From the NCBI RefSeq assembly GCF_003261055.1, contig NZ_CP030073.1:2542001-2606000 (forward strand): a DNA stretch of 64,000 bases, read 5' to 3'. Below the pieces are notes generated by a model, which had not been told where the DNA came from, ran no database searches, and worked only from the letters and a program-made list of their open reading frames with translations. Shown here one piece after another: positions 22,340 through 25,736 of this stretch. This stretch comes from Streptomyces cadmiisoli (lineage in GTDB: Bacteria; Actinomycetota; Actinomycetes; Streptomycetales; Streptomycetaceae). Position 1 is the stretch's first letter, and every line of letters begins with the position of its first letter. The position numbers and the translations under genes are program-made.

Positions 22340-22552
22340 ATGAGCGAGAACCACGACTACTGCGCGAGCGACGCGACCGGGCTGCCCGGTGTGTCGTCCG
22401 ACACCCTCCGGGCGGCGGCGGACGACGGCACACCCCGTGCCGAGTGCGTGCTGTGCCGGAAGCCCACGGAGTACCCGGAGTCCGCCAAGGGGATCACCCT
22501 CTGCCCGGTCTGCGAGTGGCAGGAGGCCCAGCGCACGACCTGCTCGGGGTGA
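22340..22552 (+). CDS. Small Cys-rich zinc-ribbon-like protein
   Basis: A 70-residue protein with six cysteines: C8, the pair C36/C39 (CVLC), the pair C55/C58 (CPVC) and C68. Two CxxC pairs separated by 15 residues suggest a zinc ribbon. The ATG has GGAGG 2-6 bases upstream and a TACGCT -10-like hexamer 6 bases before the start. It follows the deacetylase by 18 bases and lies two genes before the DUF692 enzyme. Function is unknown; because DUF692 enzymes modify Cys-rich peptides, a substrate role is possible but unsupported. Confidence 0.75.
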   Translation: MSENHDYCASDATGLPGVSSDTLRAAADDGTPRAECVLCRKPTEYPESAKGITLCPVCEWQEAQRTTCSG

Positions 22553-22613
22553 GCGGGCGCGCGGGACACGGCCGCCCGATCGCCCGCGCCGCGGGCTTGG
22601 CAGACTGGACGGC

Positions 22614-23321
22614 GTGAGTGAGGAAACGACTGACAGTCCCTTCCGGTCCGAGGCGGGGGCACGCGACACGGCTCCCCAGTACGTGCTGCCGCTCGTCGTA
22701 CGGATCGAGCGGAGCGCGCCTCCGGGGCGGACCGACGCGCTGGAGACGGCCGCCCGCGCCGTGCTGGTGCTGCTGAGCGATCCGCGGGCGCTGGGTGAGG
22801 GCGAGTGGGCGCGGGCCGTGCGGGACTGGCAGGACGCGCGGATCCGCAAGGTGGTGCGGCGGGCGCGGGGCGCCGAGTGGCGGCGGGCCGAGGCGCTGCC
22901 CGGGATCACGGTGACGGGCAAGGCGGCGGAGGTGCGGGTGTTCCCGCCCGTTCCGCTGGACGGCTGGCCCAAGGACCTGGCCCGCCTCCAGGTCTCCGGC
23001 ACCGACCTGGACGACCCGGAGCCGCCGGTCGAGGCGGCCGGGGGCACGCCGGTGCTCTGGCTGAACCCGGAGTTGGAGATGTCGGCCGGCAAGGCGATGG
23101 CCCAGGCCGGTCACGCGGCGCAGCTCGCCTGGTGGGAGCTGTCCGACGAGGACCGTGCCGCCTGGCGCGACGCGGGCTTCCCGCTGTCGGTGCGGGTCGC
23201 GGACCCGGCTTCCTGGCGTGACCTCACGTCGATCGGGCTGCCGCTGGTCCGGGACGCGGGCTTCACGGAGATCGCGCCCGGCTCGTGCACGGTGGTCGCC
23301 GACCATCCGGCGCTGCGCTGA
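22614..23321 (+). CDS. PTH2-like peptidyl-tRNA hydrolase domain protein
   Basis: A 235-residue protein. The C-terminal 100 residues contain the PTH2 signature MSAGKAMAQAGHAAQLAWW, then FPLSVRVAD and GSCTVVADHP. PTH2 enzymes release peptides from peptidyl-tRNA and are otherwise mainly archaeal and eukaryotic. The N-terminal 130 residues (IERSAPPGRTDALETAARAVL, WQDARIRKVVRRARG) are an extra domain I do not recognise. The GTG start lacks a ribosome binding site, and CAGACT lies 7 bases upstream, so the message may be leaderless. Confidence 0.8.
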   Translation: MSEETTDSPFRSEAGARDTAPQYVLPLVVRIERSAPPGRTDALETAARAVLVLLSDPRALGEGEWARAVRDWQDARIRKVVRRARGAEWRRAEALPGITVTGKAAEVRVFPPVPLDGWPKDLARLQVSGTDLDDPEPPVEAAGGTPVLWLNPELEMSAGKAMAQAGHAAQLAWWELSDEDRAAWRDAGFPLSVRVADPASWRDLTSIGLPLVRDAGFTEIAPGSCTVVADHPALR

Positions 23322-23327
23322 GCAATT

Positions 23328-23350
23328 TCCGGCCGACGTTCCTGGCCGGA
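23328..23350 (+). terminator. Small hairpin after the PTH2-like gene
   Basis: TCCGGCC and GGCCGGA arms with a 9-base loop directly after the stop codon. The remaining bases to 23564 are GC-rich and show no clear gene. Confidence 0.5.
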
Positions 23351-23564
23351 TCTGAACTCCTCGGGCCCGCCGTCCGTACCTCCTGACGGCGGCCGCGCCA
23401 ACCTCAAATGTTGCTCTGAAGGTGCGCGCCCGGGGGTTGGGGCGCCCGGGCCGGGGCGATACCCCCCTCACGCCGGAGCGGCGGACCGTCGAAGGAGACG
23501 AGACAGCGGATCCAGGTGCAGCCGGGCGGGGACCGTGCGCGAGCGGGACATGGCGGAGGGGACG

Positions 23565-24863
23565 ATGGAGCGACTGGGTACCGGAATCGGGTGGCGGCCG
23601 GAGATCGCGGACGCCGTGGAGGCCATGCCGGGCATCGACTGGGTCGAGGCCGTCGCCGAGAACGTCTGCCCCGGCCACCTCCCCGACTCGCTGGCGCGGC
23701 TGCGCGAACGCGGGGTGAGCGTCGTCCCGCACGGTGTCTCCCTCGGCCTCGGCGGCGCCGAACGGCCCGACGCCGGGCGTCTTGCGGCGCTCGCGGAGCG
23801 GGCCGTGGCGCTGGACGCGCCGCTGGTGACCGAGCACATCGCGTTCGTGCGGGCGGGCGGCGCCCTGACCGCGTCGCCGCCGCTGGAGGCGGGGCACCTG
23901 CTGCCCGTGCCGCGCACCCGGGACGCCCTCGACGTGCTGTGCGAGAACGTGCGCATCGCGCAGGACGCGCTGCCCGTACCGCTCGCCGTGGAGAACATCG
24001 CGGCGCTGATCTCCTGGCCCGGCGAGGAGATGACCGAGGGGCAGTTCCTGTACGAGCTGGCCGACCGCACCGGCGTACGTCTGCTGATCGACGTGGCGAA
24101 CCTGCACACCAACCACGTCAACCGCGGCGAGGATCCCGCCGAGGCGCTCGCCGAGATCCCGCTCGAGGCGCTCGCCTACGTCCATGTGGCGGGCGGCTTC
24201 GAGCGCGACGGCGTCTGGCACGACAGCCACGCCCACCCGGTGCCGCGGCCGGTCCTCGACATCCTGACCGACCTGGCGTCCCGGACGTCACCCGCCGGTG
24301 TCCTGCTGGAGCGCGACGAGAACTTCCCCGACCCGGCGGAGCTGGAGCGGGAGTTGTCCGCGATCCGGAGCGCCGTCGAGGCGGGACGGGCCAGGGCCGG
24401 GAAGCCGGCCCGCGCGGATGTCCCGCGGACGGGCCCCGCCGCCGCGCCCGAGCCCCGTGACGCCGCCCGCCAGCGGCTCGGTCTCGCGCAAGCGGCGCTG
24501 CTGTCCGCGCTCGTCGCCGGTACGCCCGTTCCGGAGGGGTTCGACCGGGCGCGGCTGGGCGTGCAGGCGCGGGCGCTGGCCGGGAAGCGGGCGGACGTGG
24601 TGGCCAAGGTCGCACCCGAACTGCCGGAGATACTCGGCGCCGGCTACCGGCCCGCCTTCGTCGCGTACGCCCAGCGGCACCCGATGACCGGCGGCTACCG
24701 CCGCGACGCGCTGCACTTCGCCGAGCAGTCCCTGAGCGCCGGACACCCCGAGGACGCCCGTACGCGCCGGGAGTTGCGGGAATGGTGGCTGGACCGCGCG
24801 GGCACGGCCCCACGTCCCCGCTCCCGCATGGCCCGGGCCCGCCGGGCCCTGCTCCGCCGCTGA
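23565..24863 (+). CDS. DUF692 (MNIO) enzyme with fused partner-like C-terminal domain
   Basis: A 432-residue protein. Residues about 1-275 form a DUF692 TIM barrel with the expected metal ligands: [60 protein letters not shown] and LLERDENFP. These multinuclear iron oxidases (MbnB, TglH) modify cysteines or the backbone of ribosomal peptides. Residues about 310-400 ([48 protein letters not shown]) look like the helical partner or substrate-recognition protein (DUF2063/TglI type), here fused in one chain. ATG 23565 has GGAGGGG just upstream; ATG 23550 is possible. A TIGR04222-type membrane gene follows. Confidence 0.88.
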
Positions 24864-24959
24864 CCCGGGGCCCGAGCGGAACGTCACAGAGCCGCAACTC
24901 TCCGTCCGGATGATGAACGGGGCATGGTGTTTCCCAGGCCGGTGGCATAGAAACGCGGC

Positions 24960-25736
24960 ATGTTCTGGGTCCTCTTCCTGCTGTCCGCCTGGGTCGTCGC
25001 CGGTACGGCGTGCACCCGGCTGTGCCTGGCCGCCTACCGTTCGGCGGACGTCGACGCCACCGCGCGGCGGACACACGATCTGACGCTCTACGAGGCCGCG
25101 TTCCTGTCCGGCGGTCCCGCGCGGGTCGCCGAGCTGACCCTCGTCTCGATGGCGCGCCAGCGCCGGCTGCTCCTCGCGCACACCGGTTGGGCGACGGTCG
25201 TGGACCCGCAGGGACGCGACGACATGGAGCGGTCCGTGATAGGGGCCATCGGGCCGGAGGGCCAGTCCCGGATAGCCCCCGTGCGCGCGGCGGCGGCCGG
25301 CGCCGAAGCGGTGCGCGGGCTCGCCGACCGCCTCGTCGACGCGGGCCTCGCCGTCCCGGCCGGCGCCCGTACGACGGTCGCCTCCGGGGTGCGCCAGGTA
25401 CGGGCAGCGGCCGTGGCCGTCCTCCTTCTCGGCGTGACCGCGTTGCTGATGCCCGCTCAGGACGACGCGCCCCGGCATCTGATCGCCCTCTGGTTCGCGC
25501 TGCCGCTCCTGCTCAGCCTGAGCTGCCTGGCCCTCGCCCGGATCGAGGCCCACCCGTACTCGGCCTGGGCCTCCCCCGCGGGACAGCGCCTGCTGGGCAC
25601 CCTGACCCGGCACGTGGAGGAAGTCGGGGACGACCGCGCCTACCTCGCCTCGGTGGCCGTGCGCGGCGTCCACGCGATCGGTGAGCCCGAACTGCGCGCA
25701 GCGTTCGCGCACCGGGGCCAGTACCGGCGCGACTGA
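24960..25736 (+). CDS. TIGR04222-type membrane protein
   Basis: A 258-residue protein with an N-terminal membrane segment (FWVLFLLSAWVVAGTACTRLC, about 2-22), the TIGR04222-like stretch HDLTLYEAAFLSGGPARVAELTL, a soluble helical part, and a pair of helices at about 145-180 (AVAVLLLGVTALLM, ALPLLLSLSCLAL). Related proteins often end in a long Gly/Cys tail, but this one stops at HRGQYRRD and has only three cysteines. It follows the DUF692 gene by 96 bases on the same strand. I infer a functional link; substrate, partner or export role cannot be told apart. The ribosome binding site is weak. Confidence 0.75.
   Translation: MFWVLFLLSAWVVAGTACTRLCLAAYRSADVDATARRTHDLTLYEAAFLSGGPARVAELTLVSMARQRRLLLAHTGWATVVDPQGRDDMERSVIGAIGPEGQSRIAPVRAAAAGAEAVRGLADRLVDAGLAVPAGARTTVASGVRQVRAAAVAVLLLGVTALLMPAQDDAPRHLIALWFALPLLLSLSCLALARIEAHPYSAWASPAGQRLLGTLTRHVEEVGDDRAYLASVAVRGVHAIGEPELRAAFAHRGQYRRD

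Follow-up and report, generated by a model that had tools for sequence, protein, structure and literature searches.

An MNIO enzyme with a fused partner domain in Streptomyces cadmiisoli and a candidate substrate gene marked by the same upstream element

Described MNIO clusters and the Streptomyces cadmiisoli locus

Several characterised MNIO enzymes act on cysteine residues. The closest described arrangement to the one considered here is the 'Adjamnio-II - MNIO - TIGR04222' cluster (PMC12452194, Table 2 cluster II), whose peptidyl-tRNA hydrolase (PTH)-like protein has 233-256 residues and one Cys. The same source puts forward subsets of the Cys-tailed TIGR04222 proteins as substrates of MNIO, counts TIGR04222 as 40 percent of more than 1,000 Cys-containing proteins without signal peptide encoded before MNIO genes, and names PME-type 2 partners, and its passages on fusions name an MNIO-nitroreductase fusion and no MNIO-partner fusion (PMC12452194). 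In literature searches for TIGR04222, this was the only paper found from 2025 on and, over all years, again the only one with that term among the matches listed. Here we analyse a stretch of 64,000 nucleotides of the Streptomyces cadmiisoli chromosome (the window; contig NZ_CP030073.1, positions 2,542,001 to 2,606,000), which encodes an MNIO enzyme with a fused C-terminal partner domain followed by a TIGR04222 membrane protein. We favour, at somewhat below even confidence, the reading that this is an MNIO system lacking the Cys-tailed TIGR04222 protein of its relatives (A), in which the substrate is not the neighbouring tailless paralogue (B) but a co-regulated, TIGR04222-derived protein encoded at an unlinked locus (the C-type protein). 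The features on which the argument turns are the following.

23565..24863, + strand: MNIO enzyme, the partner domain fused at its C-terminus; 432 aa counted from the ATG; an in-frame GTG lies upstream at 23535 (442-aa reading)
23580..24374, + strand: MNIO TIM-barrel domain; the Pfam span is residues 16-280 of the reading from 23535
24459..24797, + strand: helical domain, the fused partner (residues 299-411 in the 432-aa model)
23400..23420, + strand: conserved upstream element AACCTCAAATGTTGCTCTGAA, 144 nt before the MNIO ATG; matched once in the window and in none of 100 shuffles
24864..24959, + strand: gap at the place of gene A and/or a DUF4142 gene in other Streptomyces; empty in the window
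24960..25736, + strand: tailless paralogue B, a membrane protein of the TIGR04222 family (143.6 bits to TIGR04222.1, cut-off 43; own B profile)
25011..25025, + strand: conserved C18-x3-C22 of B near the end of the first transmembrane helix (TM1), nearly invariant columns; the third conserved Cys, C189, is at 25524-25526

That the window encodes a real MNIO enzyme with a fused partner can be stated with high confidence. PF05114 matches the open reading frame (ORF) at E 5.3e-76 and 255.8 bits against a gathering cut-off of 25, the enzyme has the barrel fold of solved MNIOs, and 15 His/Asp/Glu/Asn motif residues, from PHGVSLGL to LLERD, are invariant in 106/106 aligned Streptomyces sequences, the alignment step having taken in 103 of the 106 loci. 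Which of these residues bind metal is our assumption from the family. The barrel reaches none of the NCBIfam equivalog cut-offs compared (BufB 176.5/310, HvfB 140/360, ApyH 117/400, MbnB 29.1/325 and ChrH 39.3/600 bits), BufB and HvfB of the bufferin systems (HvfB/BufB with HvfC/BufC) being the best models, and no bufferin-type precursor or DUF2063 gene was recognised beside the window's MNIO. The TglH/TglI and MbnB/MbnC systems differ as well: the barrels share 18-24 percent identity, the partner is fused in the window, and the type of substrate differs.

The C-terminal domain is predicted with confidence (predicted local distance difference test, pLDDT, 89-98 per ten-residue block over residues 301-410), and residues 305-442 alone match, in one-pass phmmer, proteins encoded beside MNIO in other actinobacterial genera. 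Twenty-four non-Streptomyces loci, the ambiguous L185 and L203 left aside, carry the domain on its own ORF; a single pass recovered 17 of them (E 7.7e-18 to 1.1e-6), and the remaining 7 were reached by the iterated profile only. Of 123 Streptomyces loci, 111 have it fused to the enzyme; in the other 12, one of them (L216) irregular, it is separate or split. The domain is thus homologous to short actinobacterial proteins whose genes neighbour MNIO, and our use of 'partner' follows from this position and homology to PME-type 2-like neighbours, not from a DUF2063 match. The PME-type 2 partners of PMC12452194 are short proteins right after MNIO in actinobacteria, and homologues of such a kind match the window's domain, whereas here the domain is fused and the likeness is drawn through the position of neighbours and not to the sequences of the published examples. 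A first-pass annotation of this DNA, made from the letters alone, had called both the DUF692 barrel, whose quoted ligand motifs are indeed in the translation, and a built-in partner domain, and on both points our results agree with it. It had also proposed to test the C-terminal domain against DUF2063, TglI and MbnC profiles, and here the match was weak or failed: PF09836 (DUF2063) did not match the window's domain and met 1 of 35 relatives at E 0.17, the PDB gave no credible match by sequence and NCBIfam nothing relevant, and hhalign returned E 0.36 against a single DUF2063 protein and E 0.0021, with a probability of only 13 percent over 89 columns, against a DUF2063 alignment. A structure search bearing on likeness to NGO1945 or TglI, made with the model of the whole enzyme, gave results filled by barrels. 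The Pfam label PF26136 sits beside PF05114 in the 120 relatives listed and may denote the fused partner domain. Fusion also occurs outside Streptomyces, in one other actinobacterial family (f18; L181, L184, L186, L187, L188, L190, L195, L202) with the domain within the MNIO ORF.

Paralogues A and B, the upstream element and the unlinked gene

The comparisons below cover 150 Streptomyces genomes, 141 with an MNIO match and 9 without; for 113 of the 141 the locus was fetched together with 3 kb or more of downstream sequence, and the first 20 whole-genome loci, chosen partly by TIGR04222 score, are included in the counts. Per genome, at most 17 candidates were scored for TIGR04222 and at most 21 or 42 for the six-Cys profile used below, and absence accordingly means 'not detected'.

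In many Streptomyces two TIGR04222 genes come after MNIO: first A, whose tail is mostly 55-125 residues long and rich in Gly, Ser and Cys, and next B, which has no tail. In the window B stands alone, 96 nt behind the MNIO stop, and ends in ...HAIGEPELRAAFAHRGQYRRD, seven residues past the domain, without Cys and thus without a Gly/Ser/Cys tail. The first-pass annotation saw correctly that the TIGR04222 protein downstream on the same strand has no Gly/Cys tail, but it took the gene for a tailless version of the usual partner, whereas it is the second member of an originally tandem pair. Labels were set by script from the number of tail Cys (A, at least three; the tails of L147 and L216 are odd in length), and by them A is present in 61 (A-plus) and absent in 52 (A-minus) of the 113 loci. 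On an MNIO tree of 103 rows, built by a quick method, the window falls inside a 36-row set that is entirely A-minus (support 96), and the A label changes seven times, with at least three changes forced by well-supported branches. Outside Streptomyces a TIGR04222 ORF with at least three tail Cys precedes MNIO in 24 of 35 loci. Conservation of the enzyme/TIGR04222 pairing, which the annotation had set as a test, is also seen in the Streptomyces sample, with TIGR04222 detected in 128 of 141 genomes with MNIO and 3 of 9 without. Of its proposal of a possible peptide-modification system, the enzyme, the fused partner and the conserved pair are supported, the DUF2063-type profile match was weak or failed, and the cluster type had already been published. 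A DUF4142 protein (75.4 bits; L065, L066, L073 and others), encoded between MNIO and B, replaces A or comes after A in many Streptomyces.

In these relatives A is the probable substrate of the enzyme. The A of other Streptomyces fits the Gly/Ser/Cys-tailed TIGR04222 proteins of PMC12452194 and belongs to the same domain family as B, which has no tail, and as the C-type protein of the window's genome, in which membrane segments are not obvious and the tail holds one Cys. For placement of the tail the source predicts the periplasm (PMC12452194), whereas charge counts, on helices picked by hydropathy, suggest the cytosol: in 65 A proteins the 15-residue flanks of the TM2-TM3 hairpin together hold 7.0 Lys/Arg and 0.8 Asp/Glu, against 0.4 and 1.6 in the loop, and in 79 B proteins the bias is weaker (flanks 3.9 and 2.2, loop 0.6 and 0.9). 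By the positive-inside rule the domain and tail of A would then be cytosolic, where the MNIO could reach the tail. Though the gene order of the window is that of Adjamnio-II, the passages on that cluster mention no fused partner, tailless second paralogue, loss of A or unlinked co-regulated gene (PMC12452194), and what appears to be new here, judging from sequence, is the tandem A/B pair, the loss of A in the A-less loci, and an element shared with an unlinked TIGR04222-type gene.

Upstream of MNIO the block AASCTCAAATGTTSCTCTGAA is nearly invariant in 36 A-minus loci and its flanks drift. The wider pattern CTCAAATSWWSCTCTGAA, with two mismatches allowed, precedes MNIO in 114 of 123 loci (58/64 A-plus, 56/59 A-minus), at 100-200 nt from the barrel in 112 of the 114. 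Within the window's own genome the 21-nt form, at up to three mismatches, marks three sites against none for the reversed-pattern control: the first belongs to MNIO, the second lies some 105 nt ahead of an unlinked TIGR04222-type gene, and the third has no gene of that type. This supports the suggestion of the first-pass annotation that the substrate may lie elsewhere and gives it a candidate locus. Across the 150 genomes a search with CTCAAATSAASCTCTGAA at one mismatch, which used the AA form and by design misses most GTT-type MNIO sites, found 89 sites in 87 genomes (reversed control, none), of which 42 lie beside MNIO, 40 at a locus with a 77-aa ORF and/or a glyoxylate carboligase gene, and 7 elsewhere; among the last seven, those of the window's genome, G017 and G024 precede C-type genes. 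Thirty of the 52 A-minus genomes have an unlinked site, against one of the 61 A-plus genomes (Fisher p 3e-12), and eight of the nine genomes without an MNIO match have no element site, the ninth (G102) having one at the 77-aa ORF.

The C-type gene of the window's genome (C1:530289-530990) lies about 2 Mb from the enzyme. Its product passes the TIGR04222 cut-off marginally (43.6 bits against 43), shows no evident membrane segment by eye, and has a Gly-rich tail with a single Cys, ending in ...GGNGGYFYCGSGGGGGGGGGSD. Fifteen of 19 C-type genes examined carry the element, its start 119-156 nt ahead of the homology start, and tails hold at least one Cys in 15 of 19, some being Gly/His-rich. With E below 1e-15 as the limit, C-type relatives were detected in 17 of the 52 A-minus genomes and in none of the 61 A-plus genomes. 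The 18 C-type genes of other genomes all lie near the 77-aa ORF and/or the convergent glyoxylate carboligase gene; the window genome's third, gene-less element site has this setting and its own C-type gene does not. The Gly/His-rich tails of L361, L364 and L365 (e.g., GGHDHGGHDYGGG) contain at most one Cys, which suggests ligand switching in a metal-binding tail. A ZMP/ZTP riboswitch (58.2 bits; L345 589-674, - strand) lies about 1 kb from the own-genome C-type gene.

Elements behind which we found no C-type ORF (G000:C1:2416221-2416241, in L346 and L347, and those of L367, L375, L380, L385, L388, L396-L408 and L410-L413) lie near the 77-aa ORF and/or the glyoxylate carboligase gene. Behind them, L414 excepted, comes a hairpin with strong pairing, GGGCCCGCCGGCACGGGGGCGGCGGGCCC, whose outer stem shows some compensatory changes. 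This is possibly a small RNA or a leftover leader.

Upstream neighbours and the choice of substrate

Two genes lie upstream of the element, the second of which is itself a conceivable substrate.

22614..23321 (about), + strand: peptidyl-tRNA hydrolase (PTH2)-like protein, counterpart of adjamnio-II (PF01981, 39.5 bits; 235 aa, 1 Cys; putative start)
22340..22552, + strand: 70-aa six-Cys protein with a CxxC...CxxC ribbon and a C-terminal C-S-G (ORF translation)

The PTH2-like gene, detected in 139 of 150 Streptomyces genomes, is part of the published cluster type and was passed over by the first-pass annotation; in length and single Cys its product resembles the Adjamnio-II protein, for which PMC12452194 cites PF01195 whereas the window's matches PF01981. 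The six-Cys ORF is as the annotation had it, 70 residues with six cysteines.

Given the loss of A, the question is what, if anything, the enzyme now acts on. As a mechanism we propose that the fused domain would present an unfolded Gly-rich tail to the iron centre, where the enzyme would oxidise the tail's Cys by analogy with characterised MNIOs, and that in the window's lineage this substrate would be the C-type protein, co-regulated and apparently soluble, whose gene lies about 2 Mb off. We tentatively name that protein, acting in trans, as the best candidate for the present substrate. More doubtful still, though worth stating, is the broader scheme in which the system was split in one large Streptomyces clade, the membrane-anchored Cys-tailed substrate giving way to a soluble protein derived from TIGR04222, which has a tail varying from Cys-rich to His-rich and stays linked to the enzyme by the shared element. 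If true, mining genomes for the element would lead to MNIO substrates in trans. In A-less species it marks the enzyme gene and a second, unlinked locus and so yields a short list of candidate substrates. A cluster that shows no precursor is not necessarily an orphan, as its precursor may sit elsewhere and be traceable by its promoter. The fused partner should also simplify expression of the enzyme.

Several observations weigh against this reading. The C-type protein is detected in just 17 of the 52 A-minus genomes, and many of the others have an orphan element at the same syntenic spot with no C-type ORF found behind it, from which it follows that the enzyme does not need the C-type protein everywhere. 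Four of 19 C-type tails have no Cys and four of 19 genes no element just upstream; two other C-type proteins fall short of the TIGR04222 cut-off, at 33.4 and 31.6 bits; nine A-plus genomes, eight from one tree group, contain weak C-type relatives; and G102, a draft of 1,420 contigs without an MNIO match, still has the element at the orphan locus. The association p values, moreover, treat genomes as independent, which they are not. Finally, the retention of B in A-minus genomes and its stronger constraint there also fit B as partner or as substrate.

Selection on the locus bears on several of the alternatives. Pairwise Nei-Gojobori (NG86) ratios of nonsynonymous to synonymous substitution rates (dN/dS) have medians of 0.213 in A-plus and 0.146 in A-minus genomes for the barrel (ratio 0.62-0.77 by bootstrap over genomes) and of 0.536 and 0.311 for B (0.52-0.67, the largest shift among the genes compared), and the bootstrap ratios for the partner domain, PTH2, a hydrolase and a deacetylase are 0.75-0.97, 0.69-0.94, 0.80-0.95 and 0.78-1.22; six loci on short contigs were dropped. 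Because several neighbours shift the same way, pairs are non-independent and the method is crude, we read the comparison as 'no relaxation' only: on these estimates the enzyme gene appears to be under purifying selection, without relaxation, in A-less genomes. An enzyme that is a relic being lost after the loss of A is therefore very improbable; though 9 of 150 Streptomyces have no MNIO match and 13 of 141 genomes with MNIO have no TIGR04222 match, the barrel is no less constrained in A-minus genomes, the ligand motifs are intact throughout the alignment, and the element is kept in nearly all A-minus loci.

If instead B were the substrate or an obligate partner, the enzyme acting on C18, C22 and C189 and the two forming a working pair in the A-less clade, its place directly behind the enzyme in the window would be explained, as would its detection in 44 of 52 A-minus against 32 of 61 A-plus genomes (p 2.9e-4), its dN/dS shift, the presence of all three Cys in 39 of 45 B proteins of A-minus loci, and the TIGR04222 association with MNIO already given. 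We nevertheless consider this unlikely. The three Cys, though nearly invariant, sit within or next to predicted membrane helices, in a protein that is well folded (model pLDDT 91.6), unlike the flexible tails of ribosomally synthesized and post-translationally modified peptides; at least one of them is missing in 6 of 45 A-minus and 10 of 34 A-plus B proteins; and 8 of 52 A-minus genomes have the enzyme with no B found downstream, six of these without any TIGR04222 match. B is probably an accessory membrane protein. In the B of two genomes without an MNIO match (L307, L308), Val stands at the second conserved Cys.

Modification of the six-Cys protein at its conserved C-terminal Cys-Ser-Gly is less likely again. 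Its distribution is suggestive, as it was detected only in Streptomyces among 114 genera, in 104 of 141 genomes with MNIO against 0 of 9 without (p 1.3e-5, which overstates independence since the MNIO-less genomes may be mutually related), with the CSG end in 46 of 50 matched ORFs. Its CxxC-x15-CxxC, however, resembles a zinc ribbon; its gene is on the opposite strand in 4 of the 6 A-labelled loci of one comparison and on either strand across lineages; in G060 it stands beside PTH2 with the MNIO matches on other contigs; it was not detected in 10 of 52 A-minus enzyme-bearing genomes; and no second copy of the element occurs in the fetched MNIO loci. Rather doubtful, but harder to dismiss than either neighbour, is the possibility that the substrate in the A-less clade is another unlinked protein, of which several could serve, with the C-type protein a minor client or unrelated. 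No candidate substrate is universal although the ligand motifs are intact in 106 sequences, and in G139 and G080, both A-minus with the enzyme, neither B nor the six-Cys protein was detected, G139 also being without a C-type protein; yet the element marks just three sites in the window's own genome, and gaps in drafts or divergence of copies could account for the candidates that are missing.

Two observations concern the enzyme family in other Streptomyces. The UPF0276/DUF692 protein of S. coelicolor is, we presume, SCO6045. After 0.15 mM peroxide SCO6045 was 3.0-fold up in the wild type, in a list rich in cysteine and sulfate genes, and in the hbpS-senS-senR mutant no gene was up after peroxide (PMC4991794). 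A few Streptomyces (L004, L005, L006) carry a second MNIO type scoring 358-371 bits; behind that of L004 comes a DUF2063 protein with relatives named HvfC/BufC.

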